A stretch of DNA of 64,000 nucleotides from Quercus robur. Lineage: Eukaryota > Streptophyta > Magnoliopsida > Fagales > Fagaceae. The stretch is from the NCBI RefSeq assembly GCF_932294415.1, contig NC_065536.1, positions 48,767,854 to 48,831,853 of the forward strand, read 5' to 3'. The translations under genes and the position numbers were made by a program. The notes under the pieces are model-generated. The model was given only the letters and a program-made list of their open reading frames with translations, had not been told where the DNA came from and made no database searches. This document shows, one piece after another, positions 42,982 to 63,849 of this stretch (within the stretch, counting starts at the first letter, position 1; the number at the start of each line of letters is the position of its first letter).

Positions 42982-43611
42982 TGATAGAGAAGTGGAAAAT
43001 AATCCATCTCCAGATCGTCTAAATGGATCGTCCAGAGCCTACAGCGCAAGTTGATCCAAGAGTTTATCCAGAAGAAGGAGAAACGTCCATGAATAATAGC
43101 ACCACCCCATAAGTTAAGTCTCCCATGGACGACAGGATCGTCCATGAGGTTCGTCCATGAGCAATCGTTAAATATCCTTGGACGACTAAACCGCCCTACA
43201 CCAGACGGACGAAAGCTCAACACTTAGACTTTCGACAACCCGCAACTATCTCAACAAACCCTTCGAATAAGTTAACTTCCATTAGCAGTTACCGTTTTAT
43301 ATCCGTTGAGGTAGTTAACTCCGGAGTTGTTGGTTTTCACAAATCCTGGGGAGGTTATTGGACAAATAACCGTCCCAGGCTCCCTATATAAGGGACCGGT
43401 CTAAACCCGATAGAGGTAAGATTCTCTCTCAGACAATTTTCCAAAACACTTGGAACTTCTTTCTCTACGAGTCTAACTTCTCCATCGGAGAAGGTTCGAC
43501 CGGTCTTCTCCGGTCTCCTCTTTGATCGCGTTTTCTTCCCTGCAGGCCATCAACCATTTCGACAGCCCACCGAAGCCAGGCCATCCACCTCACTGATTCA
43601 GAGCAATATCA
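42982..43611 (+). repeat. 5' LTR of the first Tat element
   Basis: It begins TGATAGAGAAG and ends GCAATATCA. A TATATAA box lies at 43385-43391. The 3' LTR differs from it at nine positions (1.4 percent) without any indel. Six TCGTCC/GGACGA hexamers are present. Confidence 0.97.
43385..43391 (+). promoter_or_regulatory. TATA box in the 5' LTR
   Basis: TATATAA within CTCCCTATATAAGGG lies at the expected place for the U3/R boundary, so transcription should start near 43415. The same box is at 53052-53058 in the 3' LTR. Confidence 0.75.
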
Positions 43612-43613
43612 GT

Positions 43614-43630
43614 TGGCGCCGTCTGTGGGA
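43614..43630 (+). promoter_or_regulatory. Primer binding site, tRNA-Asp-like
   Basis: TGGCGCCGTCTGTGGGA starts two bases after the 5' LTR. The first nine bases are complementary to the 3' end I recall for plant tRNA-Asp, with weaker pairing beyond. The second element has a longer match (TGGCGCCGTTG). Confidence 0.6.
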
Positions 43631-43677
43631 AAGCGACGGTTGTTTTGCGACTTTCTTTTCCGCGACAAAGGGTTAGG

Positions 43678-46600
43678 ATGGTCAGGACCAGGTCGAGGGC
43701 TACTAGCCCTGGCCGTCAGGGAAGCAGAGGCGCTTCAAGTGATCCCCAGCGTGATCGCCAATCTGCACCAGTCATGCAGACGTCGTCCGTTCAGAATATG
43801 CAATCCATGGCGGCTGCAATGGCGGAATTGACTCGCCAAAACCAGGAATTAAGGATGGAGATCACTCAGAGGAGACAGACACGTGAGGAACACGCAGGGC
43901 AGACACAAGGCCATGGTGACACACAGAATACTGAGATTGGAAGTCAGTTTAGAGGCACCACTTCACGGACAGTGCCACACTTGAAAGAGGAGATGGACCA
44001 AATGAAGAAAGTCATGGAGGAGATGAAGGAGAACATGAGGAGAACGAATCCTATAGAGGATTTGGTCCACAGGACTGACTCTCCTTTTACAGCTTCCATC
44101 AACGGCCACCCTCTACCATCAAAGTTCAAACTACCTTCTCTGGACTCGTATGATGGGACGCGTGACCCCTTTGATCACATTGCCACATTCAAGACAACAA
44201 TGCACCTTCAGGGGGTCCCTGATGAAATCATGTGTCGAGCCTTCCCTACTACCCTTAAAGGCCCGGCACGAGTTTGGTTCAGTAAAATCCCCCCAAGTTC
44301 CGTAAGTTCTTTCGAAGAGTTAAGCAAATTGTTTGTTAACAATTTCATCGGGGGACAGAGGCACAAGCGCTCTTCGTCCAGCTTACTGACCATAGAACAA
44401 GGGGACAACGAAAGCCTGCGGTCATTCATCACTCGCTTCAACAGAGAAGCCCTTAGTGTGGACGAGGTGGACGACAAGCTTCTACTGGCAGCCTTCCACA
44501 ATGGGATTAATTCGGATTTATTTATCCACAAGCTATATGAGAAGGAGCCTCAAACCATGGCCGAGCTCGTCCATTCGGCTCAGAACTTCATGAATGCAGA
44601 AGATGCAATCATAGCCAAGAAGAGGAAAAGAGCTGAGAGGATGGAAGCGCACCCAGCTCGACACTCAGAACAAGCCCCTCGTCCAAAGAAGGGACGGACG
44701 AAAGATAGGAAGGAACGAGATAGCAGGAAGACAGGTCACTTGGGAAGAAGCCAGAACTATACGCCCCTGAACGCTCCACTTAATCAGGTGCTCATGCAAA
44801 TCAAAGACGATCCTTCTTTAAAATGGCCAGAGAAGATGAAAGGGGATCCCAACAAGCGCAATAAGAACAAATATTGTCGCTTTCACAGGGACCATGGGCA
44901 TGACACGGATGAGTGTTGTGACCTAAAACAGCAAATTGAGAACCTTATCAGACAAGGAAAGTTGAAGCACTTCGTTGGAAGGGATCGTACAGATGAGAAG
45001 CTGAAAGGCAAAATAGAGGAATCATCCCGGCCCCCACTAGGAGAGATAAGGATTATCGTTGGAGGGAACTCGATGGGGCAATCTTCCAAGTCGAAGAAGA
45101 CGTATCTCAAAGCGGTACAAAACGTCCAGCTCTCTGGACGATCACCAAGGACGAGACCAATGGACGAGGCAACCATTTCCTTCACCGACGAAGATGCAGA
45201 GAGGATTCATCACCCGCATGACGATGCGATCGTTATTACACTGCTCATTGCAGATTATACAACCAGGAGAGTGTTAGTTGACAATGGAAGTTCAACAGAC
45301 ATATTGTACTACCCCGCCTTCCAACAGATGAGGCTTGGACGAGATCAACTTCGTCCAGTATGCTCGCCACTGATAGGATTTGGAGGAATGAAGGTGCAGC
45401 CCGTGGGTGCCATTTCATTACCAGTTGTGGTAGGGTCATACCCGCAACAGATAACCAAAGAAGTCAATTTCCTTGTGGTAGACTGTACCTCTTCATACAA
45501 TGCCATTATTGGAAGACCCACTCTTAATAGTTGGAAGGCGATAACCTCGACCTACCATCTATCAGTCAAATTCCCTACGGAGTACGGGATAGGACAAGCA
45601 CAAGGAGATCAGTTGGCAGCTAGAGAATGCTACTTTGCCATGATGGCTTTGGACGAACAGGTACAGACAATGAGCATCGAGGAAAGAAGAGTTATTGCAG
45701 AGCCCACGGAAGTGTTGGAAGATGTTCTTTTGCAAGAAGATGATCCTGAGAAATCTACCAGAATTGGAACATGTATGAAGGAGAAGGCAAGAGAAGACCT
45801 CATCCAGTTCCTGAGAAAAAGTATCGACATTTTTGCATGGAGTCATGACGACATGCCAGGAATCGACCCAAGTGTGATCACTCATCGATTGAATGTATAC
45901 CCCTTTTTTAAGCCTATCCGTCAGAAGAAGAGGGTATTCGCTCCCGAGAGGGACAAAGCAATCAAGGAAGAGGTTCAAAAACTGACCACGGCAAAGTTCA
46001 TTAAGGAAGTCTATTACCCGGATTGGTTAGCCAATGTGGTGATGGTGAAGAAAGCTAATGGAAAGTGGAGAATGTGCGTAGACTTCACTGACTTGAACAA
46101 AGCATGTCCCAAGGATAGTTATCCTCTGCCACGCATTGATCAATTGGTGGACTCTACTGCTGGCCATCAGTTGCTGAGCTTCATGGATGCCTTCTCAGGA
46201 TATAATCAGATCAAGATGGATGAAACTGATCAGGAAAAAACTTCCTTCATTACCAGCCAAGGCTTGTTTTGCTACAAAGTGATGCCCTTCGGCTTGAAGA
46301 ACGCAGGGGCAACTTATCAAAGGTTAGTGAATCACATGTTTCGTCCACAAATAGAACGGAATGTGGAGGTTTATGTCGACGACATGCTTGTGAAGAGCAT
46401 AGACGAGGGAAGCCATCTAGACGACCTACAGGAAACCTTTGAAACACTTCGGCGATATAAGATGAAGTTGAACCCAAGCAAGTGTGCATTCGGAGTATCG
46501 TCGGGAAAGTTTCTGGGGTTCATGGTCTCGCAAAGAGGAATTGAGGCAAATCCGGACAAGATCCAGGCTATATTAAACATGGAGCCACCGAAGAGTATCA

Positions 46601-48903
46601 AGGAAGTCCAATCCCTCACAGGACGAGTTGCCGCTTTGAACAGGTTTGTTTCGAAAGCCACAGATAAGTGTTTACCTTTCTTTAAAGTCCTCAGGAAGGC
46701 ATTTGAGTGGACGGACGAATGCCAAAGGGCCTTCCAAGACCTGAAGGACTATCTCACAACTACCCCATTATTAAGTCCATCCGTGCAAGGAGAAGAACTG
46801 TACCTATACTTAGCGGTGTCCCCACACGCCGTAAGTTCAGCTTTAATTAGAGAAGAGGGGAAAATACAAAAACCGGTGTACTACACTAGCCGAGCACTCA
46901 GAGGAGCAGAGGGAAGATATCCGCTCATGGAGAAATTGGCTTTTGCACTGATAACGGCTTCTAGGAAGTTAAGACATTACTTCCAAGTTCATGTCATCAA
47001 TGTCATGACGGACCATCCGCTTAAGAAGGCAATGAACAAGCTGGAAGCCGCAGGACGACTGGTTCAGTGGGCAGTTGAACTTAGTGAATTCGACATTCGG
47101 TACCAACCGAGAAATGCAATAAAGGCTCAAGCCCTAGCAGATTTCATTGTAGAGTTCACTCCATGTTACGAAGACCTGGGGGAAGGAGAGTACAACAACA
47201 AATGGGTCGTCCATGTAGATGGATTGTCTACATTATATGCTGGAGGAATAGGAGTTGTTTTGCAGTCGCCAGAAGGGGACAAATTGAAATACAAGGCCCG
47301 TCTGCAATACCAGACTACTAACAATGAAGTGGAGTATGAAGCCCTTTTAAAGGGGTTGGAACTGGCCAAATCCGTAGAAGCAGACTCAATACTTGTCCTG
47401 GGAGACTCTCAATTGGTCATAGGCCAAGTCAATGGGACATGTGAAGCCAAGGAAGACAGAATGAAGAAATATCTAAGAAAGGTAGTACGCCTTGTGAAGA
47501 AATTCAAAAAAGCAGATTTTGTTCAAATCCCAAGGGAAGAGAATGTGGAGGCAGATACTCTGGCGAAGGAAGCATTTGCGAATGAGGCGTTGGACGAAAT
47601 GGATGATGTACACTACATGCCAAGTATAGACCTTCCAGAACTGATGCAGATAGAGGGAGAAGGAAATTGGATGACCCCAATAGTGTCATACTTAAAGGAC
47701 AGAAGGCTTCCAGAAGAGAAGGACGAAGCTAGGAAGCTCAGGGTCAAGTCAGCCAGGTATGTGCTTATGGACGAGGTGTTATATAAGAGAGGTTTTTCCC
47801 AGCCTCTCTTAAGATGTTTGGCTCCGGACGAGGCAAATTACATGTTGAGGGAGGTTCACGAAGGAGCATGCAGGAACCATTTGGGAGCCAGATCACTCGT
47901 CCATAAAGTCATCCGTAGCGGATTCTATTGGCCAACCATCCAAGCTGATGCTAAAGCATATGTCAAAGTATGTGATCAATGTCAACGCTTTAGCAACATT
48001 CCCAGACAGCCAGCAGAATATCTCACGCCAATGATGGCCCCTTGGCTTTTCGCACAATGGGGACTAGACATTTTGGGGCCCTTTTCGACTGGAACTCGGC
48101 AAATGAAGTTTCTGGTGGTGGGAATAGATTACTTCACAAAATGGGTGGAAGCCGAACCCTTAGCCAAAATTACGCAGCAGAATGTCAAGAACTTCTTCTG
48201 GAAGAACATTGTATGCAGATTTGGAGTACCTAGAGTACTAGTGTCTGACAATGGACGACAGTTTGACAACACACCTTTCAGGGAATTTTGTGAACAGCTT
48301 GGAATGAAGAACCATTACTCCTCACCCTCCCACCCACAGGCCAATGGCCAGGCAGAAGTAGCGAACCGATCCTTGCTGAAGATTATCAAGACTCGGCTCG
48401 AAGGGGCAAAGGGAATATGGCCGGATGAATTACCAGGTGTTTTATGGGCTTATAGAACGACAGCGAGAACTCCAACAGGAGAAACTCCTTTTAAACTAGC
48501 CTACGGAAGCGAGGCAGTTATACCAGCAGAAGTACACATGACAAGCCACAGGGTGAGGAAGTATCAAACTGAAGAAAACGAGGAACAGCTCCGTCTTAAC
48601 CTTGACCTTATGGACGAGGTCAGGATGGATGCAGAACAGAGGACAGCAAGGTACAAAAATCTCATGGCAAGACAATATGACGCTATGGTGAAGCCTAGGC
48701 GTTTCAACATCGGGGATCTCGTCTTGAAGAGGGTTACCTTGGCAACAAGAAACCCGGCCTACGGGAAACTTGGCCCAAATTGGGAAGGACCTTATAGGGT
48801 TATCAACTGCAAAAGGCAAGGATCCTACTATTTGGAAGCTTTGGATGGGCGGAGGCTGGAACACCCTTGGAATGTTGAGCACCTCAGGAAGTACCATCAA
48901 TAA
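43678..48903 (+). CDS. Gag-pol polyprotein, Tat-type Ty3/Gypsy
   Basis: One open frame encodes 1741 residues from ATG at 43678, 64 bases after the primer site begins. Gag occupies roughly residues 1-420, with a capsid-like core (LPSLDSYDGTRDPFDHI) and a CxxHxxxxHxxxxC zinc motif at 400-413. Protease has its active-site Asp at 535 (VDNGSS). Reverse transcriptase has YVDD at 899-902. A first RNase H follows. A second, archaeal-type RNase H starts with VHVDGLS (Asp1181) and has NNEVEYEALLKGL, LGDSQL and EADTLAKEA, so all four catalytic acids are present. Integrase has the HHCC finger from His1394 to Cys1432/1435 and an exact DD35E triad (Asp1524, Glu1560, first Asp1464). No stop or frameshift interrupts it. 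It supplies every enzyme needed for copying and integrating the element. Confidence 0.96.
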   Translation: MVRTRSRATSPGRQGSRGASSDPQRDRQSAPVMQTSSVQNMQSMAAAMAELTRQNQELRMEITQRRQTREEHAGQTQGHGDTQNTEIGSQFRGTTSRTVPHLKEEMDQMKKVMEEMKENMRRTNPIEDLVHRTDSPFTASINGHPLPSKFKLPSLDSYDGTRDPFDHIATFKTTMHLQGVPDEIMCRAFPTTLKGPARVWFSKIPPSSVSSFEELSKLFVNNFIGGQRHKRSSSSLLTIEQGDNESLRSFITRFNREALSVDEVDDKLLLAAFHNGINSDLFIHKLYEKEPQTMAELVHSAQNFMNAEDAIIAKKRKRAERMEAHPARHSEQAPRPKKGRTKDRKERDSRKTGHLGRSQNYTPLNAPLNQVLMQIKDDPSLKWPEKMKGDPNKRNKNKYCRFHRDHGHDTDECCDLKQQIENLIRQGKLKHFVGRDRTDEKLKGKIEESSRPPLGEIRIIVGGNSMGQSSKSKKTYLKAVQNVQLSGRSPRTRPMDEATISFTDEDAERIHHPHDDAIVITLLIADYTTRRVLVDNGSSTDILYYPAFQQMRLGRDQLRPVCSPLIGFGGMKVQPVGAISLPVVVGSYPQQITKEVNFLVVDCTSSYNAIIGRPTLNSWKAITSTYHLSVKFPTEYGIGQAQGDQLAARECYFAMMALDEQVQTMSIEERRVIAEPTEVLEDVLLQEDDPEKSTRIGTCMKEKAREDLIQFLRKSIDIFAWSHDDMPGIDPSVITHRLNVYPFFKPIRQKKRVFAPERDKAIKEEVQKLTTAKFIKEVYYPDWLANVVMVKKANGKWRMCVDFTDLNKACPKDSYPLPRIDQLVDSTAGHQLLSFMDAFSGYNQIKMDETDQEKTSFITSQGLFCYKVMPFGLKNAGATYQRLVNHMFRPQIERNVEVYVDDMLVKSIDEGSHLDDLQETFETLRRYKMKLNPSKCAFGVSSGKFLGFMVSQRGIEANPDKIQAILNMEPPKSIKEVQSLTGRVAALNRFVSKATDKCLPFFKVLRKAFEWTDECQRAFQDLKDYLTTTPLLSPSVQGEELYLYLAVSPHAVSSALIREEGKIQKPVYYTSRALRGAEGRYPLMEKLAFALITASRKLRHYFQVHVINVMTDHPLKKAMNKLEAAGRLVQWAVELSEFDIRYQPRNAIKAQALADFIVEFTPCYEDLGEGEYNNKWVVHVDGLSTLYAGGIGVVLQSPEGDKLKYKARLQYQTTNNEVEYEALLKGLELAKSVEADSILVLGDSQLVIGQVNGTCEAKEDRMKKYLRKVVRLVKKFKKADFVQIPREENVEADTLAKEAFANEALDEMDDVHYMPSIDLPELMQIEGEGNWMTPIVSYLKDRRLPEEKDEARKLRVKSARYVLMDEVLYKRGFSQPLLRCLAPDEANYMLREVHEGACRNHLGARSLVHKVIRSGFYWPTIQADAKAYVKVCDQCQRFSNIPRQPAEYLTPMMAPWLFAQWGLDILGPFSTGTRQMKFLVVGIDYFTKWVEAEPLAKITQQNVKNFFWKNIVCRFGVPRVLVSDNGRQFDNTPFREFCEQLGMKNHYSSPSHPQANGQAEVANRSLLKIIKTRLEGAKGIWPDELPGVLWAYRTTARTPTGETPFKLAYGSEAVIPAEVHMTSHRVRKYQTEENEEQLRLNLDLMDEVRMDAEQRTARYKNLMARQYDAMVKPRRFNIGDLVLKRVTLATRNPAYGKLGPNWEGPYRVINCKRQGSYYLEALDGRRLEHPWNVEHLRKYHQ

Positions 48904-50057
48904 GTGCTGACTCTTCACCAGTGTCCTTGGACGAGATATATGGACGAGCAGAAGTGTTTACTACTGTCAAGTGTTTTTAAGTATTTTAATAATCCCCTAG
49001 AAAGTACATTAGTGTTTTCACTTTTGTGCTATTCATGGATGAGTTGGTTTGTATTTTTAATTCAATAAGGCACTAGCTAATGAGCATGTGCCATGCCTGT
49101 GGACGAATGTTTACATAAGTTTAGATTTTCAAATATATATATATTGTTTTCAAGTATATTATTGGAATCCTTATATGTTCATTCAGATTGATCCGCAAAA
49201 AGAAAGCCAGCATGGACGAATGAAATCCTTGGACGCAAGGATATATCGTCCATAAGCCTTCCTCCAAAGGAAGGATGAAAAGGTACATCCGTCCAAAGCA
49301 AGAGACGAGATGAAACCTAAACTGAAAATTAAGCTAAGGTCCATCCGTCCAGAAATAGGACGAGATGAAACCTAACCTGAAAATGAAACCAAGGTCCATC
49401 CGTCCAGAACATAGGACGAGATGAAACCCAAGCTAAAAATAAAGCAAAGTTTCATCCGTCCAGAACATAGGACGAGATGAAAAGGGCATACTCTTCTAGA
49501 CCTCAAGACGAGATGAATTCCCAAAAGTGTTCGTCCGAGACGCGGACGAGCAAAGACTTCAAAACTAGCTTAACAATCCATTACATTGGACGAGAAATCG
49601 CTAAAAAGTCTAATCATCAAGGACGACAAAATGATCGTCCATAATTTTGGAATGATGAAAAATCTAGCCAAAAGGAATCAATTTACTTTATCTTGGTGAC
49701 GTAATAAAATTCACCTCCATGCCCAAGACGAGGTGAACTGAATTCCTAGATGGACGAACCACACTGCTGATATGAAAATAAAAATTTCATACATAAAGCT
49801 GGAAACGTATATATTCAAACACAATGGAAGTAAAAATAGAAGTATTCATTCCTTTCATGAAATTCAAAGGGTGGACGACCAACGTCCAAAAACCCCTTTA
49901 GTTTTGAATATGAAAATGTATATAAAACTCGTCCATAATCCTGGACGAGATGATTGTACTTGCATAAGCTTTAAAATAAAAGAAAGAGAAAAGGCCCAAA
50001 ACAACGAGCACTTCCATGAAAAGGCAAATAAAAGTAGATTTTCTAAGGAAATAGATT
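48904..50057 (+). other. Non-coding region between pol and the antisense gene
   Basis: No gene is seen on either strand. It is saturated with GGACGA and CGTCC words, for example near 48930, 48943, 49099, 49214, 49556, 49589, 49620, 49752, 49873, 49929 and 49942. It contains the 55/56-bp tandem repeats described separately. Confidence 0.7.
49282..49492 (+). repeat. 55/56-bp tandem repeat in the first Tat element
   Basis: GACGAGATGAAA occurs at 49304, 49359, 49415 and 49471, a spacing of 55 to 56 bp. Each unit joins CATCCGTCCAGAA, ATAGGACGAGATGAAACC and a spacer with AAAATNAAG. Every unit holds the CGTCC and GGACGAG words in opposite orientation. Confidence 0.85.
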
Positions 50058-52296
50058 TCACTTGGGCAAGCTCGTCTTAGGGTCGTCCTGAGTGACTTCA
50101 GTGTTAGCGTCGTCCATGATGTTGACGTCCTCGGAACTCGTCTGCAACACGGAACTCTCTGTAGCAAGAGGAAGCTTGAAGGAGTTGAAGTCCAAATCAG
50201 GATATGCCTCTTTGGCATCAGCACGGAAGTCTTCATAGCCAGCTGCATAATGACTGTTTAGACGATTCTTATACTCGTCAGACTTCTTAAAGGCAGCAAT
50301 TGCCTCTTCACGTGCCTTCTCCAAAGACGAGGTAAGCTCTGAAACTTGTCCTTCGAGATGGACGATGCGGGTATCCTTCTCTAAATTGTCAGCTTTGAGC
50401 TCCTCCACGTCGTTCTTCAGCTTCGTCTCGCTTCCCAGCAGACGATTAAAGTCCTCGGTCAACCTAATGACGTCCCCCTTCTTGGATAAAATCTCATGGC
50501 TCAGCTCCTTAACCTTGTCCTTGGCCGTCTTAGCATCTGAAGCAAGCTCCTTGGCTTGACAGGTTGCTGTATAAAACTTTGACATAGCCTGCATTTGGAC
50601 GAAAAAGAGTTAGACATTTCATTCAAGATAAAATGTTTATACACAAGGACGAGGAATAAACTTACTTTGAAGGTCATGGATGCCAGAGCGTTCAAACTCC
50701 TTCACTGACATGTTGTAACATTCGTTAACTTCATGGTCAGTGACGAGTCCTTTGAACGTCCTCCATGCGTAACCCTCATCCAGAACCAAATTAGGTGGAC
50801 GATCAAAGGACTTGGCTTATGAGAAGCTTTGGGAGGAGGGGGAGGATCAGACTGGACAGGATGAACTATTTGGACGGGCTCCACGTCCACCACAGGTTCG
50901 TCCAAATTCACTGTTGGTGGTACGAACTTAGGAACCTTGGGAAGGGAAGTCTTACTTGACTTTTGCTTCTTGTGGCCACGACGACTGGGAAGGTCGTCCA
51001 GGTCCACAGTACTTAAGATTGGTTTAGACTTCCTCTTCCCAGCCTGGACGGAAGCCACTTTGACAGTAGGGGCAGCAGCATCCTCGTCCCCGCTAGCCAC
51101 TGTTTTCTCTTTGTTTTCCCTCATCGTGCTTATCCCTATGACGAGGAAAATTAATTAAAATATATATATATATATATAAATAGATAAATAAAAAAAGAAA
51201 GGAGAGCTGAAATAACAAGTATAATGGACGACACTTACTTCGACGAGTGAGCTCTTCGTGACTTAAGTTCTCAGCAGTTGGGACTGGACCAAGTCCCCAA
51301 GTAGCTAGACGACTAAAGGTAACTAAGTCGTGGAAAGTCCTTCCTGGAAAGGTGCGAACCACTTCTATCCGGTCCAAGAAAAACTTGTCCAAGTGTGGAC
51401 GAACGACAGCTGCATCACCAAGATAAAGGGTTAGACGAGTGACAGATAAGAAATTTTAAAGGACAAACAGGATAAAATGGAAAGAAAAACATACCCTCAG
51501 GACGAAGACGACCTAGAGAGCTGGTAAAAGGTGGGAAGAGGGGAATACCCACATCAGTTGGGTCCCCAGCCCAATTTCCAGAAATAATAAAAAATTCTTT
51601 TTTCCAAAGCCGGTCAGACGAACTACGGCCCGTTATTAAACTGTAATATGAACCTCTGGACGAGAATTGGTAGAACCCAGCAGATTTTTTGATCTCTGAG
51701 GGCTTATAGCAGTAAAGGAACTCGTCCACTGTAATTGGACGGTCCCCTTCCAATGCCTCACGCCATAATACTTGCATGGCAACAATCGTCCTCCAACCAT
51801 TGGGATTGAGCTGGTTAGGCCCAATACCCAACCTTTGGAAGAGGTCTCTGCAGAAAGAGTTTAGGGGAAACCTAAGGCCAGCTAAAAGATAAGAAGCATA
51901 TACCCCTAAGCCAGAGGAAGGGGAACAACACCATTCTCCAACCTTGGGTAGACGAGGGTTAAGCTCTTTAGGGATTTGATATCTATCTACAAGAGTTTTT
52001 AACTTAGCACCGTCTAAGGTGGATGCTACCTCTGGGGCACAACTATAGATTACATCTTCTTCGTCCTCTTCCTCGTCTTGAGGAGGACTAGACGGCTGTC
52101 TGGACGAACTAGCCCCAGATCCAGAAGCTGCCCTACGTCGTTGTTCCTGAAATTCCTCTAAGGGAATGCCAGGAACCCCAGACGAGTAATGCTCGTCTGA
52201 GGAATCACTACAAGACGAACTATCTACACTACCCTCACTCTCAGAGCCGTCCTGGTAGTCGTCTATCTCTCTCTCGAAACTAGAAGATGAAGACAT
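50058..52296 (-). CDS. Antisense gene of the first Tat element (Transposase_28-like N-part, coiled-coil C-part)
   Basis: Exon 1 (52296-51495) starts with an S/D/E-rich leader and continues into a globular part (LPKVGEWCCSPSSGLGVYASYLLAGLRFPL..), typical of the antisense or accessory frames that Pfam groups as Putative gypsy type transposon (PF04195). It joins exon 2 (51409-51239) and exon 3 (from 51135) through clean GT-AG sites with matching phase. Exon 3 is a basic and proline-rich linker, then shifts frame near 50815-50830. The other frame continues sensibly to FERSGIHDLQ near 50667. A last exon from about 50594 gives a 178-residue coiled coil ending at 50058. The biochemical role is unknown. 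The frameshift means this copy may not make the full protein. Confidence 0.7.
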
Positions 52297-52454
52297 GTTT
52301 GAAATGTAGAGGACTTAAAATGAGAGCCTAAAAAGAAAAAACAAGAAAAGAGGAAATACCTGATGAAACTAGGACGAGAGCTAGACGAGAATCTTGGACG
52401 AGTTGGCAGAAGAGAGAATGAGGAAAAAAGTGAGGGGCATGAAAGAGAATGCGC

Positions 52455-52462
52455 TATTTATA
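52455..52462 (-). promoter_or_regulatory. TATA box of the first antisense gene
   Basis: TATAAATA on the minus strand, within GGCCTATAAATAGCGC, lies 159 bp upstream of the antisense ATG at 52296 and outside the LTR. A TATAAATA at a comparable place precedes the antisense gene of the second element. Confidence 0.65.
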
Positions 52463-52637
52463 GGCCCCAGCAACAGGGTCAACAAAACGACACTCGCCAC
52501 TCAGAAATTGACACGTGGCGATCCTTTTGGGAAACGAGATCGACACAATTGGCCAACCAACAGTTTCGCGACACGTGGCGTATGAAAAAGCGAAATTTTG
52601 TTAAAATCACGACAATGTCCTGGACGACCCTTTGAAC

Positions 52638-52648
52638 AAAGGGGCAAC
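52638..52648 (+). promoter_or_regulatory. Polypurine tract of the first Tat element
   Basis: AAAGGGGCAAC immediately precedes the 3' LTR, the place where plus-strand DNA synthesis is primed. Confidence 0.75.
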
Positions 52649-53278
52649 TGATAGAGAAGTGGAAAATAATCCATCTCCAGATCGTCCAAATGGATCGTCC
52701 AGAGCCTACAGCGCAAGTTGATCCAAGAGTTTATCCAGAAGAAGGAGAAACGTCCATGAATAATAGCACCACCCCATAAGTTAAGTCTCCCATGGACGAC
52801 AGGATCGTCCATGAGGTTCGTCCATGAGCAATCGTTAAATATCCTTGGACGACTAAACCGCCCTACACCAGACGGACGAAAGCTCAACACTTAGACTTTC
52901 GACAACCCGCAACTATCTCAACAAACCCTTCGAATAAGTTAACTTCCATTAGCAGTTACCGTTTTATATCCGTTGAGGTAGTTAACTCCGGAGTTGTTGG
53001 TTTCCACAAATCCTGGGGAGGTTATTGGACAAATAACCGTCCCAGGCTCCCTATATAAGGGACCGGTCTGAACCCGACAGAGGTAAGATTCTCTCTCAAA
53101 CAATTTTCCAAAACACTTGGAACTTCTTTCTCTACAAGTCTAACTTCTCCATCGGAGGGGGTTCGACCGGTCTTCTCCGGTCTCCTCTTTGATCGCGTTT
53201 TCTTCCCTGCAGGCCATCAACCGTTTCGACAGCCCACCGAAGCCAGGCCATCCACCTCACTGATTCAGAGCAATATCA
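52649..53278 (+). repeat. 3' LTR of the first Tat element
   Basis: It is 630 bp, the same length as the 5' LTR. The nine differences between them are all transitions. TSD GTAGT follows at 53279-53283. A TATATAA box lies at 53052-53058. Confidence 0.97.
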
Positions 53279-53283
53279 GTAGT

Positions 53284-53793: not shown

Positions 53794-54562
53794 TGTGGGG
53801 TCAAAGAATTTGACAACCTCGGCCTACCTCATACTAAGCCCAAAACCCACGCCGAAGAGGAAGGAACAGTCGAGGATGAATAAAGAAAGCCCAAGTGGCC
53901 CAGAAACATCGCCGAGGACAATTCTGTCCTCGGCCAACCCAGATCCTAGTAGGGAAGAACGGCCCGCCATCAACGGCAGCCTCCCAGAGCATCCCTAAGA
54001 AAAAGGACAAGTACTATAGGACGGTCATAGGAGCATGATGTAGGAACAGTTCAAGGAGAAACTGTCACCTTCGCATTGAATGCCCACAACTAACGTTCTA
54101 ACCGCATTAATAACAAAATGACCTCTGAACAGTGCGGTCTTAGTTGCTGCAACTCACTGAGGGTTTGGGAAGGTGACTGATGGGACAGGCACTCGAGTAC
54201 TGACTACTTGCATGATCAACAGATGGAGGGCCAGAATCGACCGGAGGGGGATATATAATGTGAGAAATCCTTTAGTAGAAGGGGGGGATACTGGAGCAAT
54301 CTGCATGATCTTAAAAACCTTTGTAACCTAGCACTAAAGAAATAATAAGAACACTAAGTTCCTCAAACAAAATGCCCGAGGACAGAATTTAATACTTCAG
54401 TCCATATTCTTGCTGTTCAATCCACTCATAATCGTGTCTAGTTGTTGTAATCCTCACTAAAACCTAGTTCTTAAACCCATTCTCTATAAATTTATTGTAT
54501 TGGGTTAGTTGGGCTTGAGTCTACTCATCCAATAGAAGAAGTGCTCGAACCCAATCCCTACA
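53794..54562 (+). repeat. 5' LTR of the second Tat element
   Basis: It starts TGTGGGGTCAAAG and ends CCCAATCCCTACA. A TATATAA box lies at 54252-54258. Four CCTCGG/CCGAGG hexamers are present. It is homologous to the solo LTR at 20585-21364. Confidence 0.93.
54252..54258 (+). promoter_or_regulatory. TATA box in the LTR of the second element
   Basis: TATATAA within GGGGGATATATAATGTG. The complementary sequence is kept in the solo LTR at about 20906-20914. Confidence 0.7.
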
Positions 54563-54564
54563 AT

Positions 54565-54580
54565 TGGCGCCGTTGTGGGA
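54565..54580 (+). promoter_or_regulatory. Primer binding site, tRNA-Asp-like
   Basis: TGGCGCCGTTGTGGGA begins two bases after the LTR, the same spacing as in the first element. Eleven bases (TGGCGCCGTTG) match the complement of the recalled plant tRNA-Asp 3' end. Confidence 0.65.
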
Positions 54581-54614
54581 AGAACTTGTGTGTTAGTAAG
54601 GACAACAATTAAGT

Positions 54615-57600
54615 ATGGTAGGATCAGGCCCTCATCAAGCAGGCTCCCATCAGCTCAAACTGGCTAGATCCCAACAACATGGTAACTTTCCTAACCCTAA
54701 ATGTGATCGAAATGAAGAAAATGGAAGGTTTCGAGAGGGAAGTGTACACACCACTCAAACCAGCAAAAGCTATTCTCGTGTGGGCAGTCACGTGCTTCAA
54801 AGACAAAATAACAACCAGGCCATGCAACCAGAAGAAGTTAGGAGTCATGTATCCCAGAAACAGAACAATAAGTAGGCCATGCAGTGAGAGATAGACGATT
54901 TGAAGAGAAAGCTGTGCCATGTAGAACGAAGGCGATCTTATTCTAGGCTTGATATACCCTCCGATGATGAAAGTGACAATGACTATAGGCAAAGATCGAA
55001 GACTCCCCCAAGTGAGACATTTTCTCATGAAGAAGAGTACTATCGGAGGCGTAAGCATAAAAGCCCATCTCCTAGGAGCTTGGGAAACAATGCCATGAGT
55101 AGGGCATTGGATCAACTCTCCAAGTCACCTTTTACGCACCACATAGAAGGGGCTACACTTCCTCGACGATTCCAGCAACCAACCTTCGCCATTTACAATG
55201 GCAAAATAGACCCCGTGGAGCATGTGAGTCAGTTCAACCAAAGGATGGCTGTCCATTCTAAAAACGAGGTGCTGATGTGCAAGGTTTTCCCGTCTAGCTT
55301 GGGACCAGTGGCAATAAGGTGGTTCAATGGCTTAAAGACGAATTCCATAGATTCGTATAGGCAGCTAACCCAAGCTTTTGGCTCCCGTTTCGTTACAAAC
55401 AGCAGAGCTCTTCGGCCTTTAAGTGCTTTGTTGTCGTTATCCATGCATGATGGAGAAACTCTAAAGGCCTACTCGGACAGATATTGAGAGACGTATAATG
55501 AAATGGACGACAATTTTGACAATGTCGCCATCAACACCTTCAAAAATAGTCTCCCAGCCAAGCATAGATTGAGGAAGTCTCTAACTAGCAAGCCCGCCAC
55601 CAGTATGCGCCTCCTAATGGATTGGATCGATAAGTATAAACGAGTGGAGGAAGACCAGCTGTAAGGTTGAGGAAAAGAGAAGGTTATCCCTTAGGAGATG
55701 AGAGATTTCAGGTCGGATCGATATAATAGCAACCGTCCAAGAAGAGATTTCGTAGGGCAATCTGGAGTAACCAACACACAAATTGTCAATACTGTATTCC
55801 GAGAACCAGTACATCGGGTGTTGGAAAAAATCAAGAACGAGCCATACTTTAAGTGGCCGAATAAGATGGCGGGAGAGTCCACGAGGCGCAATCAAAAATT
55901 TTATTGCCAATACCACCAGGACCACAGGCATACCACGGAGAATTGCAGGAACCTCTGGAACTATCTGGACCAGTTAGTCCAAGAAGGAAAGCTGAAACAC
56001 CTTCTGCATCATCCCAGTAGTCACCAAGGTCAGACCCATCAGGAACCTCAGAGAGATACTACCCTAAGGCCACCCGTAGGGACGATCAATGTAATCTTGT
56101 CCGTTCTAGAAAGAACAGGCACGCGCCCTTCACAAGTGTTATCTGTGGCTTGGCGGCCTGCCAAGGAAACCCAGCCAGAGCCGAAGAAGGCCAGAATGAA
56201 TTTTCATCCAATCTTGAGTTTTTTAGAAGAGGACAAGATCGGAACCATCCAGCCCCACGACGATGCGCTGTTAGTCACTCTCAGAATCGGGGACTACGAT
56301 GTGAAAAGAATGATAGTGGATGGTGGCAATGGGGCCGAGGTTATGTACCCCGACCTTTACAAGGGGCTGGGGTTAAAACCGGAAGATTTAATGCCCTATA
56401 ACTCTCCTCTAATAAGCTTCGATGGGAAGCTTGTCATTCCAAAGGGCATGATTAGGCTGCCCATCCAGACTGGCCCAGAGATAGTGCAGGTGAACTTTAT
56501 CGTGGTGGACACCTACTCTCCCTACACATTTATTGTCGGTAGGCCCTGAATCCATACCTTAGGGGCTGTTGCTTCCTTATTGCATCAAAAGGTGAAATTC
56601 CCATCAGGGAACCAAGTTCTCGAAATCCACGGTTTCCAATCCACGGCAAGGTAGTGTGTGGTGGCTGCCATCTCGCATCGTCTCAATGCGGAGTCACCAG
56701 CCTCTGCTGAAAAGAATTTATAGCAATCAAGGGCCCCAGTTTCGCCCCCTGATACAATTGCCGAGGAGGCAAAATGCGAAGATTTGGAGGAGGTGGTTAT
56801 TGGTGGTGACCCAGAAAAGTTCTTTCGGGTAGGGGCTCAACTGCCTTTTTAGGAGAAGGAGGAGTTGATTGAGTTTCTCAAAAGAAATATTGACGTATTT
56901 GCATGGGATGCTTGCGATGCTCCCGGGATTGATCCAGCCTTCATTTGTCACCATCTCAATGTCAACCCGACCATCACTCCCAAGAAGCAGCCACCCCGTC
57001 GCCCATCAAGAGAGCACGCCAATGCGATTAGGGACGAAGTGGCGAAGCTTAAGCATGTAGGGGCTATCAAAGAGGTTTTTTGCCCCGAGTGGTTGGTCAA
57101 CACCGTGGTGGTTAAGAAGAAAAGCGAAAAATGGCGGGTTTGTGTGGACTTCATGGACCAAAATAAAGCATGCCCAAAAGACCCGTTCCCCATGCCTCGG
57201 ATAGACCAGCTGGTGGATGCAACAACAGGCCATCCTCGGATGAGCTTCTTAGATCCCTTTCAAGGCTATCATCAAATACCACTAGCCTTGGAGGACCAGG
57301 AGAAGACAGCCTTCGTGACACCAACTGGGAACTATCACTACAAGGTAATGTCGTTCGGTCTGAAAAACGCAGGGTCCACTTGTCAAAAGATGATGACGAG
57401 AATGTTTAAGCCGCAGTTGGGCAAGAGCATCAAAATCTATGTCGATGATATGGTGGTGAAGAGTAAAGTGGTGTCCGAGCGTTTAGGAGACCTCGGCAGC
57501 ACCTTTGGTGTCTTAAAGAAGCATAAGCTACGCCTAAATGCTTCCAAATGCTCATTTGTCGTGGGATCAGACAAGTTTTTGGGCTACATGGTTACTCATA

Positions 57601-60037
57601 GGGGAATTGAGGTTAACCCTGACCAGATCAAGGCTATAAATGATCTAAAACCACCATAAAACGCCAAGGAGGTCCAAAAGCTTACTGGAATGATCGCAAC
57701 CCTGAATCAATTCATTTCCAAGTCGGCGGATAGATGCAAACCATTCTATCTCTTGATCAACAAGTGGAAAGGATTTGAGTGGTCCGAGGACTGTATTGTG
57801 GCCTTCCAGCAACTCAAGGAATACCTATCTCGGCCACCCATCATGTCCAGTCCTAAAGCCGATGAAGTCCTATATGCATATATTGCTGTGGCCCCCCATG
57901 CCGTGAGCTTAGTGCTAATACAGGGCGACAATGGCCTTTAAAAGCCAATCTATTACGTGAGTAAGTCGCTACATGAAACTGAGATCAGATACTTACCACT
58001 GGAGAAAGCCATGCTGGCTATGGTCCACGCTACACGAAAGTTTTCCCATTATTTCCAAGCCCACACAGTGGTTGTTCTAACACAACTACTCTTGAAGTCC
58101 GTACTTCGGACCGCTGATTACACTGGAAGGATTGCCATATGGAGCACAATTCTGGGAGCTTTTGACATCAAGTACATGCCTCGGACCTCCATAAAGGGCC
58201 AGGTCCTAGCTGACTTGGTGGCCGAATTTGCTGAACCACCAGTAGAAATAGTAGCAAAGGAGCGGAACATGGATGGAAAATAGGTTGTAGTAATCTCTAC
58301 ATTAGGACCCTATGTTGGAAGGTGTACGTTGATGGTGCAGCAAATCAAAGGGGGTCCGGAGTGGGGCTAGTCCTAATATCTCCTGAGAATACTATCATAG
58401 GGAAATCCCTGAGACTTGGGTTCTCGGCCACGAATAACAAAGCCGAGTATGAGGCCTTGTTACAAGGAATGGCCATGTTACAGAAAATGGGAAGAAAAGC
58501 AGTAGAGATGTTCTCGGACTCGAGATTAGTAGTGGGTCAGGTAAAGGGAGAACTGGAGGACAGAGATGCGAGGATGCAAGAGTACTTAAGTCAGGTCAAA
58601 TGCTTGCAGTCAGACTTCAATCTTTTCAGCCTATCACATGTCTCCAGAAGTGGAAACACTCATGCAGATTCATTGGCCATGCTTGCTACCTCCTCGGTAG
58701 GGGGTCTGCCTCGAATTATTCTTGTCGAGCATCTAGATAGAGCAAATGAGGTTACGAAATGCATGGTCCACATCCATGAGGTTAGAATGGGTCCTAGCTG
58801 GATGGACCCTATAGTGAGGTTCCTCAAAGATGATGTCCTACCTGAGGAGAAATCAGAGGCTGAAAAAATATGAAGAAACGCCCCTCGGTTCTGGTTGTCC
58901 GAGGATCACAAATTGTATAAGCGCTCCTTTTCTGGGCCATATTTACTGTGTATTCACCCAGAAGCATCAGAGTTACTGCTTGAAGAGCTGCACGAAGGGA
59001 TTTGTGGGAGTCACACAGGAGGAAGATCTCTGTCACACCGAGCCATTACCCAGGGATATTGGTGGCCAGGGATGCAGAAGGAAACGTTGGAATATGTTAA
59101 GAAGTGTGACTAGTGCCAAAGATTTGCCCCAAATATTCATCAGCCAGGCGGGGTCCTCAACCCTTTGTCCAGTCCATGGCCGTTCACCCAGTGGGGTCTG
59201 GATATTGTAGGCCCTTTCCCAAAGGCAGTAGGAAATAAGAGATATCTGCTAGTCGGCACAGATTACTTCACCAAATGGGTTGAAACTGAGCCATTGGCAA
59301 ACATCAGAGATGTGGATGCTAAGAAATTCATCTGGAGAAACATTGTTACACGATTCGGGGTCCCTCGTACCCTTATTTCAGATAATGGACTCCAATTTGA
59401 CAACAAGGCCTTCAGAAGATACTGCTACGAGCTGGGGATCATTAACAGGTACTCAACTCCAGCTTATCCTCAAGGAAATGGGCAGGCTGAGGCTGTCAAC
59501 AAGGTCATAGTCAATGGGCTTAAGAAGAGACTAGATGACGCCAAGGGAAAATGGGAAGAAGAGCTGCTGCACGTCTTATGGACTTATCGGACTACACCAC
59601 GGCAGTCAACAGGGGAGACACCTTTTGCCATGACCTATGGGGCTGAGGCTGTTATCTCTCTAGAGGCAAACTTCCCAACGTTGAGGACGACCTCCTTCAC
59701 CCTGGACAGTAATGATGAACTACTGGGGAAGAACCTAGATCTGATCGAGGAACGAAGAGAAAAGGTAATGATCCAGTTGGCCTATTACCACCAGAAGCTC
59801 AAGCAGGGATATGATTCCAATGTGAAGCTTAGACCGCTAGCACCAGGGGACCTAGTATTGAGGAAAGTTGTGGGTGCTGCCAAGAACCCATCTTGGGGAA
59901 AGTTGGGACCCAATTGGAAAGGACCATACCGAATTACTTCAATAGCAGGAATAGGTGCATACTACTTAGAAGACTTAGAGGAAAAAGCTGTACCTCATCC
60001 ATGGAATGTAAATAACCTGAGAATGTATTATTATTAA
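54615..60037 (+). pseudogene. Decayed Tat-type gag-pol
   Basis: The frame opened by ATG at 54615 is broken by many stops (near 54873, 55485, 55662, 56547, 57657, 57939, 58281, then 58871 and 59111 in a shifted frame) and changes frame between about 58283 and 58322. Recognisable parts in order are the gag core (IYNGKIDPVEHVSQF), a YCQYHQDHRHTTENC zinc motif, a protease (IVDGGNGAEVM), a reverse transcriptase with YVDD (near 57440), RNase H, a second RNase H (KVYVDGAANQRGSG, ATNNKAEYEALLQGM), the HHCC finger, an integrase core (WGLDIVGPF, SDNGLQFDN, PQGNGQAEAVN) and a C-terminal GKLGPNWKGPYRI segment. Gene order equals that of the first element. Confidence 0.93.
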
Positions 60038-60104
60038 CAAAAGCATTTCTCTAGTTCAAATAAGTCTATTATGATTATATGTCTTGCATTTTGGCAACCG
60101 TTTT

Positions 60105-60578
60105 AGTACTAGACAGAACTAAGGTCTTACATGGTCCTCAAACTCAAACCTATGGGGAAATTAGCTACTTCAAGAAAAATCTAAGTACTAGACAGAACCA
60201 AGGTCTTGCATGGTCTTCGGACTCAAACCTATAGGGAAACTAGCTACTTCAAGAAAAATCTAAGTACTAGACAGAACTAAAGTCTTGCATGGTCCTCGGA
60301 CTCAAACCTATGGGGAAACTAGCTACTTCAAGAAAAATCTAAGTACTAGACAGAACTAAGGTCTTGCATGGTCCTCGGACTCAAACCTATGGAGAAACTA
60401 GTTACTTCAAGAAAGATCTAAGCACTAGACAAAATCAAAGTCTTGCATGGTTCTCAGACTCAAACCTATGGGGAAACTAGTTACTTCAAAAAAAACCTGA
60501 GTATTAGACAGAACCAAAATCTTGCATGGTCCTCGGACTCAAACCTATGGGGAAATTAGCTACTTCAAGATCCATAAA
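60105..60578 (+). repeat. 79-bp tandem repeat, six units
   Basis: AGTACTAGACAG and variants begin units at 60105, 60184, 60263, 60342, 60421 and 60500, exactly 79 bp apart. Each unit contains GGTCTTGCATGGTCCTCGGA, CTCAAACCTATGGGGAAACT and AGCTACTTCAAGAAAAATC with small substitutions. Three of the six carry a perfect CCTCGG. The block stands at the same place relative to pol as the 55/56-bp repeats of the first element. Confidence 0.95.
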
Positions 60579-60946
60579 AGTTGCAAATATGGCCTAAGTA
60601 CATGCTCGGTACCTCGGATCATACACTCAGCCCCCGCCCCCTAAAAATATGGGTAGACGCAAATTAAGTGTCCCCTTAATGCTGGTGAGTTAGAATTTTA
60701 AGGTTTAATTTCAAATATGATATGTACATAGCCATTCTTACCCATTAGGATAACCAATTCATGAGACACAAGGTTCACAGTAATAACAATAGCAATAATA
60801 GCAATAATAACAATAAACACATAATGTAAAAAAGAGAAGAGGAAGAAGGAATTTCATTCATTTAATCTAAAAGTTTAATTACAATGATTCCAATGTCCTT
60901 AAAAAAAAAAAAAAAAAAAAACTAATACAAAGGTTAGCCGGGTTGC
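60579..60946. other. Non-coding stretch before the antisense gene's 3' end
   Basis: No gene seen. It holds AATAAT-type simple repeats near 60782-60818 and a 22-base poly-A at about 60899-60920. It probably includes the 3' UTR of the antisense gene on the minus strand. Confidence 0.5.
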
Positions 60947-63549
60947 CTATTTCTTCAATTTTATCTTGACCCCTTCCTTGGGGAGTTGAGCAGAAGTGAC
61001 CTCAGGACCCTTAGAGCCCTTGCTCGGGGGAACAGTTTGGAGGGGCTGAACCGAGAGAGCAGGCTCCTTAGCATGAAGGGCCTGGGCATTGGCCGCAGAC
61101 TCTGCAGTCTTCTGGGGCGCTTCAGGGTCCACATTTTCATGTGTCTTGGTCGCCCCAAGAAGCTCACCCTCCTCGGCTGGCTCATTATAAGTGGTTATAG
61201 CCAGAGCAGCTTCAGACCGAGCAGCCTCAGCCTCCTCAAGAGCAACCTCAGCCTCGGAGCTGGCAGGGGCAGTTTCGCGGATGGCCGGAAGGTAGTATAC
61301 ATTTTCCACCTTCCACAGATCGGATGAAATCTCAACCCCAGCTTGTTTAAGGGCTTCATTCCAAACTTGGGAATAGTAGATCCTGCATACTCCAGGCACT
61401 TGAGCCTTGAGAATGGCCTGGGTCTCAGCCACTCCCAAGTCATAAGCCTCCTCGTCGGCTTTCTCCTTGGAGCTCTCGGTCGTCGTCCTAGCGAACTCCG
61501 CCTCTGCCTTAGCCCTCAAGGCTTCATCCCTAGCCCACTTTGCAACATTCTTGGCTCCCTCCGCCTCAGCCAACTTCTTCTTCAGATCAACGATTTGCTC
61601 CTTAGCAATTTTCAGCTAATCTTCAATCTCAAGTAGGCGCTTCGACTAGCTTTCGGCTTGTCTCTAAGCGCTGGCTAGGCCTGATTCGACGCTATCCCTA
61701 GCCCTGGTCATCTCCTTCAGCTCCTCCCTTACCTTCGAGAGATCAACCTCGGAGTTCTTGAAGGCCTGCGTAGCATCCAAGCGCTTGTCACGCTCAAGCT
61801 CCAGTGACCTGCTCTATTCCTTAGCGTCCTCTTCCAACCTATAAGTGGCCTGGACGGCCTGCCAATTGAAACAAGCCCACTGTAAGTTAAAAACCAAGGG
61901 ACAAAAATCACCGGAGTCACAAGTGTTGGAAGTCTTACCATGCCCAAGTATCTCTTAATGCTGAGGAAGACCTCCTGCCTCCTCAGATTCCCCAACTCAA
62001 CCATATCAGTGGGGAGTAGCAGGGACCTCTCTAACGCGTCGGCCACATAAATACCTTTACCCCCTCGGAAGTCCCTAAGGGAGGTGTTGTCCATCAATGG
62101 CTCCCCGTGGAGCATTGGGGCAGGAAGCCAGGCTTAGGGTGCGGATTGAGTGTCGATCTTTTTTTCCTGGCCATGGTGCCCAATCTTTAATTGCTTTGAA
62201 GCTCGGGGGGGCTTCATCTCCCTCCTGAGAGGGGCGAGATTTCTCCCCATCCATGGGCTCCTTGCCTTTGGCAGCCCTCTTCCTTTTTGGGTCGGTGGAC
62301 TCGGGCTGAGAAGGTAGAGTCGATTAGGAAGGAGGAGGAAGTCTGGATCGTGGAGATGATGGCTGTAATTGGGTGGAGGACGACCTGGTCTAGGAAGGCT
62401 AAGGCTGGGCTAGAGGAGGAGGAAGCGTGAGTTGTGACTTCCCCGGCACGTCCTTCCCCTGTTGGCCCTCAATTAGGTCTAACAGACTGGTCGGAGGTTT
62501 TCTCTTAAAGCCCATTTTAGCTTGAGAAGATGTCCCTATTGATAGGAGATCCACTTCGGTCAAATCGGGATCGCCCAAGTCACCAGAGGGATCCTCGGAT
62601 AGACTAACTTGGTCAAATACACCAAATTCTTCCTCGGACGGACCCAAATCACCCTCGGCCTCTGCTGCTTGGTGGGATGAAGAAGGGCCTGCCAATAGGA
62701 TGCCTTCTGGGACAGGAGATCCTTCGGGAAGCAAAAACCCATGCTTTGCTACAGTGATTCTGTGAAGCCGAGGATCGTTAGCTCTGATCACGTGCTTCGG
62801 AGTAGGGAATGATTTCTGGATGGGATTATACCCTAGGATCTTGTGAGCGGCCCTAGCTTGGTTGTCAGCTTCGTTTACAAAAACCGCCGCCTTGAGAATG
62901 GTTTCCAAATCTCCTCGGTTGATGAGGTGAAACTGTCGTTCAAAGGCGTGTGGATTTGCAAAAAGAAAACATGTTCATATTAGTAACCGAACAGTGCAAA
63001 TTACGATGGCACAAAAGATTAATCCTCTCCTACTCTCGATACCCCACATGGTTCCCTCTCCTCTGTTGGGCAATGAAGGCCGTCATGCCACTTCCCAAAC
63101 ACAACGAGAAAGTCCTTGTTTAACCCTTTGCTGGTCTCGGGGAGGCACTGAATAAGCCAAATCTTATCGTCCCTCGTCTTCATATAGTAGGATTTACCCT
63201 TCAGGTGTTGGAGGTTGTAGCACCAGTTTACATCGTGATGGGTTAACCTCAACCCCATTTTCTCGTTTAAAGCGTCCACACAACCTAGGATCCTAAACAC
63301 GTTGGCAGCGCACTGGGTGGGAGCTAATCGAAAATGCCTAAGGTAATCCCTCATCACTGGCCCCATAGGGATTCTCACGCCACCTTCTATAAAGGCGATT
63401 AGGGGAATCACCACTTCACCCTCTTGCCTTCTAAAATGCCACTCCCCTTCCTCACAGTACCTCAAACCTACATTAGGGGGTATCCTATAATTGGCGATGA
63501 ATTTTTCCATCGCCTCTTCGGACTCAACCAACTTTTTTAATTTACCCAT
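60947..63549 (-). pseudogene. Antisense gene of the second Tat element
   Basis: Minus-strand coding blocks lie at about 63549-63040, 62935-62399, 62115-61729 and 61573-60947. The first (MGKLKKLVESEEAMEKF, then GVRIPMGPVMRDYLRHF, CVDALNEKMGLRLTHHDVNWCY) has the same type of globular domain as exon 1 of the first element's antisense gene: a GEW-like start, a G(V/L)R(I/F)P segment, and a block ending in an FGKW or SGNW-like motif. The second has an acidic P/S/E-rich linker. The third and fourth contain K/E/A-rich coiled coil (ARDEALRAKAEAEFARTT). Stops inside the coiled-coil part (for example near 61616 and 61648) show decay. Gene place, strand, domain order and intron positions correspond in the two elements. 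Confidence 0.7.
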
Positions 63550-63797
63550 CCCTAGAAACGACTAAAAAGACTCAGGGAAGGACGAAAGAAGGAGAGGAGT
63601 AATAGGAAAAGAAACTTAGAAGAGAGAAAACGCAAGTTAGAGAGAGAAGAAAACTTACAGAAATGAGGAAAAGCTCTTTGGACAGGCTTTTTATGCTGGA
63701 AAGAGACTTGAGTTTGGCTAGAGATTTGACTGAACTCAGGATATGTGCACAAGAACTCTTGAGTGCAAAAGTAAAGAAACGAATTGGTTCAAATGGG

Positions 63798-63805
63798 TAT
63801 TTATA
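63798..63805 (-). promoter_or_regulatory. TATA box of the second antisense gene
   Basis: TATAAATA on the minus strand, within GGAGGTATAAATACCC, lies 249 bp upstream of the antisense ATG at 63549. It is identical in its 8-base core to the box before the first antisense gene. Confidence 0.6.
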
Positions 63806-63849
63806 CCTCCAATTAAAAATAACCATGCGGGTTTTCCCGCCCATAAAGT

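Follow-up and report, generated by a model that had tools for sequence, protein, structure and literature searches.

In Arabidopsis, the VANC proteins of the VANDAL transposons (VANC21 and VANC6) recognize short motifs that are dense in their own families (YAGTATTAY; AGTTGTCC/AGTTGTAC), and, according to the sections consulted, most of their sites fall in noncoding DNA, as tandem repeats of a single orientation (PMC5735166), while the proteins keep the copies of their own family open (PMC5735166, PMC10398659). In the Retand lineage of long terminal repeat (LTR) retrotransposons, an antisense gene of the TRP28 type (PF04195, Transposase_28) was reported for 97% of young clusters, and its product was predicted to bind DNA, in the part of PMC11963269 consulted; in that survey the Retand elements Helianthus annuus 4 and 5 lack the gene. 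The antisense protein of Grande was described as nuclear and as having its own promoter, as told in a portion of PMC7264820, and VANC-like possibilities were discussed for sunflower LTR elements in general (PMC12844716, in part). Here, a 64-kb window of the Quercus robur genome (NC_065536.1, positions 48,767,854 to 48,831,853) was analysed; it holds one such retrotransposon, E1, and a second, E2, that runs past its end. We found that a word of E1, GGACGA/TCGTCC, often extended to TGGACGA/TCGTCCA, stands far above chance, is family-wide, is not explained by coding in gag-pol, and is both kept and re-made above a neutral simulation. It is a short double-stranded DNA word under selection, and it is family-specific. 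The features of E1 are as follows.

42982-53278: E1 as a whole, an LTR retrotransposon of the Tat/Retand lineage
42977-42981 and 53279-53283: GTAGT, the 5-bp target-site duplication of E1
42982-43611, plus strand: 5' LTR, 630 bp, from LTR alignment
43015-43212: word cluster in U3 of the 5' LTR, seven [TAC][GA]GACGA sites, each of them 5' of the TATA box (43385)
43678-48903, plus strand: gag-pol, a single open frame with 25 GGACGA cores
48904-50060: spacer after pol, 17 cores and 16.4 degenerate sites per kb
49279-49482, plus strand: 56-bp tandem array, 3.7 copies, each unit with one word
50061-52296, minus strand: antisense TRP28 gene after pol, multi-exon
52296-51495, 51409-51239, 51135 onward and a final piece 50594-50061, minus strand: putative exons of the antisense gene, with limits placed by eye from GT-AG signals
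51775-51900, minus strand: PF04195 (TRP28) match, E 1.3e-07, 32.2 bits, cut-off 26.2
52455-52462, minus strand: TATAAATA, located 5' of the antisense gene and judged from the sequence to be its probable promoter
52649-53278, plus strand: 3' LTR, seven GGACGA/TCGTCC cores

The majority of the GGACGA/TCGTCC cores of the window (75 of 91) fall in E1. A preliminary description of this DNA had counted six cores in the 5' LTR and had seen the word recur in the spacer and in coding DNA; the recount gave the same six, and the totals for spacer and gag-pol listed above agree with it. TGGACGA was the most enriched non-simple 7-mer of E1. With one LTR counted, 46 copies of TGGACGA/TCGTCCA were present in 9,667 bp, compared with 1.04 expected under an order-1 and 2.9 under an order-2 Markov model (Poisson P ~2e-38 against 2.9), and 4 of the 56 copies in the window lay outside the element. 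The one-mismatch profile was sharp and defined [TAC][GA]GACGA, most other neighbours being near expectation. Outside these positions the 68 sites of E1 carried at most 0.15 bit at every position, and their best flank identity was 0.464 versus 0.462 for random positions. Since no flanks are shared, the copies were not spread by duplication of a longer unit, the tandem array apart.

The density of degenerate sites per kb was 17.1 in U3, 14 in the antisense gene and 5.5 in gag-pol, besides the value of the spacer given above, and the 221-bp R-U5 had none. The six exact cores of the 5' LTR all lie in U3 (P 0.07 under random placement), and a change at 43020 has removed one site from this LTR. Words at 52621, 52396 and 52372 surround the putative antisense promoter. 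The two orientations were balanced in U3 (3:3) and in the antisense gene (9:8), with a plus-strand bias overall (45:23, P 0.01); the presence of both is as expected for a double-stranded DNA site. As much as 103 of the 339 CpGs of E1 lie in the word (as GACGA), and their removal lowers the CpG ratio from 0.68 to 0.47. There is also a hint of a preferred spacing: pairs of exact cores 13-14 bp apart numbered 8 versus 0.9 (a maximum over distances this high arose in 0.05% of jittered sets), and pairs of degenerate words were weaker (8 versus 1.8; 1.85%).

The excess in gag-pol stayed when a codon- and dinucleotide-aware null was applied. In 500 shuffles preserving the protein, codon use and dinucleotides, 7.9±2.2 GGACGA cores were obtained (maximum 15), compared with the 25 observed, which occupy three frames and both strands. 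For the four short antisense coding pieces the sum was 13 versus 9.1, under a null so nearly frozen that little is shown by it. Identity between E1 and E2 was 0.436 at motif codons and 0.441 elsewhere; thus, there is no sign that the words sit at replaced residues. Peptide positions able to encode the motif numbered 71 versus 40 in gag-pol (rank 2 of 2080 words, beside DE-type words such as GATGAA), a figure that is partly an acidic-pair excess and on which we place little weight. In E1 each of the six frames was above expectation, two of them barely.

Other copies were sought in the window's own 786-Mb genome. The E1 TRP28 exon gave at least 132 matches (100-66% identity), and all copy numbers here are lower bounds. 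Fifty E1-family loci (3.5-4.6 kb) were taken: the best 30 of the 132, and 20 of the other 102 picked for lower identity. Another six loci, of the E2 family, were drawn from 149 other matches (92-73% identity). The motif recurred in all 50 and all 6 loci, respectively. The preliminary description had named two outcomes that would speak against it, loss of the enrichment under a codon- and dinucleotide-aware null and absence of the motif from other copies, and for E1 neither came about. The E1-family loci contained 5-39 GGACGA and 0-3 CCTCGG each, and in every one of them the top 6-mer overlapped the E1 word or its G/A variant (GGACGA in 29, TGGACG in 18, and TAGACG, GACGAG and AGACGA in one each). 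The z score of this top 6-mer had a median of 24.0 (9.4-30.2); in 18 overlapping 4.4-kb tiles of window positions 1-42900 the median was 6.5 (4.7-12.2). Forms expected from CpG decay rose in the old copies of the family (66-74% group), with TGGATGA at 63 versus 8 and TGGACAA at 47 versus 9; the 93-100% group had 11 versus 16 and 59 versus 19, respectively.

Turnover of the words was then compared with a neutral simulation, in which the 3' part of E1 was aligned to 20 divergent copies and each copy was simulated by mutating E1 at the substitution frequencies of that copy, with CpG treated separately. The divergent copies had kept 249 of 584 E1 sites, while 105.9 were kept in simulation, and they held 79 new sites versus 25.6 simulated. 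For twelve control words the corresponding ratios were 0.1-1.7 (kept) and 0-1.6 (new). The gained sites lie at positions with 1-5 mismatches in E1. Three stretches of gag-pol were treated in the same way, with codon position in the model and 200 runs. The copy 91% identical to E1 had kept 16 sites versus 11.8 and gained 4 versus 1.4; the copy at 79% had kept 9 versus 2.8 and gained 7 versus 1.9, above the simulated maximum of 6; and the copy at 75% had kept 5 versus 2.0 and gained 9 versus 1.9, above the simulated maximum of 5. Considering that both kept and new sites are in excess, the number of words is maintained while their positions turn over, coding DNA included.

The assignment of E1 to the Tat/Retand lineage is based on a second RNase H before the integrase and on the antisense TRP28 gene. 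Its gag-pol contains, by Pfam, gag, a protease region, reverse transcriptase, RNase H, the second RNase H and integrase, in the order RT_RNaseH (1067-1165), RVT_3 (1213-1326) and Integrase_H2C2 (from 1414). The two LTRs differ at 9 of 630 positions. The LTR (630 bp), internal region (9,037 bp) and POL-3'LTR distance (3,745 bp) are all inside the Retand ranges of 315-1194 bp, 7,380-12,869 bp and 2,933-6,566 bp given in the part of Vicient 2025 consulted. No relatives were found in the viral_contigs or genome_contigs collections, as expected for a plant genome, and a bacterial promoter scan upstream of the antisense gene gave nothing, its bacterial model having no bearing on a plant. Directly before E1 there are AT-rich tandem or duplicated repeats (40242-42611), including a 186-bp unit in three copies (42054-42611).

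The second element starts at 53796 and was described at first as unrelated to E1. In contrast, we found an identity to E1 of 32-54% for the pieces of gag-pol and of 27% for the TRP28 region; by sequence comparison, E2 is a distant relative of E1 and its antisense gene a distant TRP28 relative. E2 and its related LTRs comprise the following features.

53796 to beyond the window end, plus strand: E2
53796-54562, plus strand: 5' LTR of E2, 767 bp by alignment, four CCTCGG/CCGAGG
54888-60034, plus strand: gag-pol of E2, several interrupted open frames
60105-60570, plus strand: 79-bp tandem array, 5.9 copies, three units with an intact CCTCGG and three with an altered one
60950-63561, minus strand: antisense gene region of E2
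about 63247-63408, minus strand: PF04195 match in this region, E 0.00034, 21.2 bits (cut-off 26.2, not reached)
20585-21362, minus strand: relative of the E2 LTR (85%), four CCTCGG/CCGAGG
1397-2005, minus strand: relative of the E2 LTR (about 60%), words at positions homologous between all three LTRs

CCTCGG, a weaker word than that of E1, was the top 6-mer of E2 (27 versus 3.9 in 10.2 kb) and extends to TCCTCGG. The four copies reported for the LTR were found again, although the length had been put at 769 bp; the 13 copies between 60000 and 63600 and the presence of the word in both related LTRs were likewise confirmed. In noncoding E2 DNA the count was 13 versus 1.26, and ten were left when three tandem copies were removed. 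In coding DNA it was 14 versus 6.6±2.3 by synonymous permutation, a number equalled in 3 of 1000 permutations. In the E2-family loci CCTCGG was enriched in six of six (8-13 per locus, with 2-5 GGACGA); CCGAGG ranked second in three of them, third in two and ninth in one, and CCGAGGA was the top 7-mer in four. The words of the two related LTRs are at homologous positions, partly as inverted pairs, and two words of the E2 LTR form such a pair 16 bp apart (53912/53928). Inverted CCTCGG/CCGAGG pairs 15-16 bp apart were met in three cases (53912-53933, 58883-58904 and 20766-20786) and might be a candidate dimer site. One E2-family locus (L056, 4101 bp) also contains, beside its CCTCGG words, 27 AACCGA/TCGGTT versus 2.2 expected, perhaps a tandem array. 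An RVT_3 (RNase H-like) open frame (21382-22026, minus strand) adjoins the E2-like LTR at 20585-21362.

A PF04195 search of the genome gave at least 150 matches over the cut-off, and eight loci (L063-L070) were picked from them for score spread, mostly with long open frames. None of the eight matched the E1 locus L001 or the E2 locus L051 by blastn at 1e-10. In family C (L065, L067 and L069) GGACGA was the top word, with 22, 30 and 31 copies in 4.4 kb; considering the blastn result, the word common to E1 and C is not shared DNA. In family D (L064, L066, L068 and L070) TGACGA occurred 13-20 times per locus and was the top word in three loci. Pooled counts over expectation were 150/6.5 GGACGA, 85/8.6 AGACGA and 11/7.1 TGACGA for E1; 83/5.1 GGACGA for C, where GACGAT was also enriched; 68/7.0 TGACGA and 40/6.8 GGACGA for D; and 69/13 CCTCGG and 4/6.5 TGACGA for E2. 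Thus, the base before GACGA was G and A, not T, in E1, mostly G in C, and T and G in D, while E2 has little GACGA. The TRP28 proteins of C and D were 45-54% identical, those of E1 31-36% identical to C and D, and that of E2 23-34% identical to all others, so the most distant TRP28 is paired with the most different word. Four families, then, show four preferences, which is a correlation and not proof. A single Copia element used as a control had no such word (its top 6-mer reached 4 versus 0.3 in three bins). One random 5000-bp stretch of the genome (L062) had a tight array that includes the family-D word: three 150-bp bins contained ten copies of TGACGA and twelve of CGTCAC.

The preliminary description compared this layout with that of VANDAL and VANC, and the comparison stands in part. 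A dense, family-specific short word and an extra gene encoded by the element are present in both systems, as are, to judge from the VANC sections consulted, tandem arrays with the motif and related proteins with different target words. The noncoding, one-orientation, tandem layout of the VANC sites did not hold for E1, whose sites lie also in gag-pol, in both orientations, mostly dispersed and without shared flanks, and contain CpG. VANDAL is a Mu-like DNA transposon, whereas E1 has LTRs and gag-pol; VANC carries DUF1985/DUF287, whereas the antisense product of E1 carries PF04195, to which that of E2 has a match below the cut-off. A Pfam search of the antisense pieces of both found no VANC domain, just PF04195 and weak matches of coiled-coil type. 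VANC has been demonstrated to bind its motif and to remove methylation, activities that are putative for TRP28. Short dispersed words of self-identity in coding and noncoding DNA also exist as the DNA uptake sequences of Neisseria and Haemophilus and as Chi sites, which belong to bacterial chromosomes and to uptake or recombination machinery. In structure there is a likeness to the Retand elements Grande, RIRE2, Cinful and Retand, in which pol is likewise followed by an antisense PF04195 gene, integrase is preceded by a second RNase H and tandem arrays are family-specific; a dispersed word is not described in the portions of these sources examined (PMC11963269, PMC6317226). By a term search, 'motif' occurs twice in PMC11963269, as the name of a program and in the web address of that program. 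In the literature searched, which was one library, we found no description of a dispersed word that marks a Retand family.

We consider it fairly probable that each of these Retand-type families uses its own word as a self-tag, to which a sequence-specific protein would bind and so keep the copies of the family open; the most likely candidate is the TRP28 that the element itself encodes in antisense. We infer that TRP28 is the reader because the word follows the TRP28 family, the Retand survey predicts DNA binding, and the Grande antisense protein is nuclear and has its own promoter. With less certainty, and by analogy with VANC, we infer that binding would give anti-silencing, not activation or handling of complementary DNA (cDNA). 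TRP28 would bind many copies of the word along its own element, in the U3 enhancer, the gene bodies, the spacer and the antisense promoter, and would keep own-family copies transcriptionally open, as a retrotransposon counterpart of VANC anti-silencing. Both words have a central CpG, so methylation could affect the binding.

Several observations weigh against this reading. The antisense gene of E1 changes frame near 50.8 kb, where its basic segment gives way to a C-terminal segment of coiled-coil-like character; this change may be either an undetected intron or a frame break. AlphaFold models of TRP28, built on two-sequence alignments, were too poor to be used (mean predicted local distance difference test scores of 42 and 43), and a search for a solved relative gave none that was useful (best E 0.21). 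The copies of E1 share ancestry and one average rate was simulated, which weakens the exact figures of the turnover test and can inflate the number of kept sites, hardly that of new ones. For E2, 24 of 55 sites were kept versus 13.9 and 24 were new versus 9.0, and two control words behaved alike (GGCTGA, 16 versus 10.6 and 22 versus 8.4; AGGCTG, 8 versus 6.3 and 24 versus 9.9); this test was therefore dropped as evidence. The strict null was not beaten in E2 coding DNA (14 versus 10.3 summed over ten pieces, not significant), so an excess of CCTCGG is not established there. No CCTCGG was found in 62913-64000, where the E2 antisense promoter is expected. CCTCGG also occurred 5 and 6 times in two of three random 5-kb stretches, which counts against its being exclusive to E2-like elements, although these copies may be remnants of such elements. 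Finally, the top word of one family-D locus (L068) was GACGGA, and the single locus of family D2 (L063) had no clear word.

As a broader and more tentative proposal, which we hold a little less probable than its opposite, the TRP28 proteins and their words would form a co-evolving code of self-recognition across Retand, an anti-silencing system of retrotransposons that arose independently of VANC and in which each family opens only its own copies. One fold would read GACGA-type words with a family-specific 5' base or flanks ([GA]GACGA in E1, GGACGA in C, with GACGAT enriched as well, TGACGA/TGACGG in D, CCTCGG in E2), and coding sequence would be bent to carry the sites. The lineage itself is spread over flowering plants.

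A transcription factor or chromatin protein of the host could instead recognize the word and be exploited by the elements, different families using different members of one host family. The clustered U3 sites that precede the TATA box would suit such a factor, and GGACGA-type words in E1 and C, which are unrelated in DNA, could mean one shared host reader. However, gag-pol and the 3' spacer are filled with sites far from promoters, the preference follows the TRP28 family, the single Copia element lacks such a word, and the literal 7-mers are absent as whole words from the literature searched, and we regard this explanation as unlikely. Somewhat less likely again is a role of TRP28 on the cDNA of the element and not on chromatin, by which the protein would coat it or carry only its own cDNA into the nucleus before integration. 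Sites along the whole element in both orientations are consistent with that role, and a function in the pre-integration complex has been proposed for antisense open reading frames (PMC7264820, in part), but densities that are highest in U3, the spacer and the antisense gene, with none in R-U5, fit regulation better. An action in RNA, for example in packaging of genomic RNA or in Gag binding, is very improbable: the plus-strand bias points that way, but the 23 sites in minus orientation are a strong enrichment in their own right, and the two orientations are balanced in U3 and in the antisense gene. The least credible explanation, in which tandem duplication, base composition or protein coding yields the words as a side effect, can draw on the peptide share of the gag-pol excess, on the word-bearing arrays of both elements, on some 13-bp pairs that are short duplications and on E2 coding DNA, but for E1 it is refuted by the gag-pol null, the unshared flanks and the gains at new positions in the turnover simulation, and the noncoding excess also contradicts it.

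Elsewhere in the window, an open frame at 12743-13645 (plus strand) encodes a MYND finger and a Sel1 repeat and is probably a host gene or gene fragment. The tile 14401-24067, which contains no known Retand coding DNA, showed a mild over-representation of ATTGAC, with 27 copies versus 6.9 that are spread over 20 bins of 300 bp.

TRP28 is a gene of no known function, and a word that marks the family gives it a direct, testable target. If TRP28 reads the word, retrotransposons, like DNA transposons, would recognize and perhaps open their own copies in a sequence-specific manner, and the families would already provide protein-word pairs that have diverged in nature.

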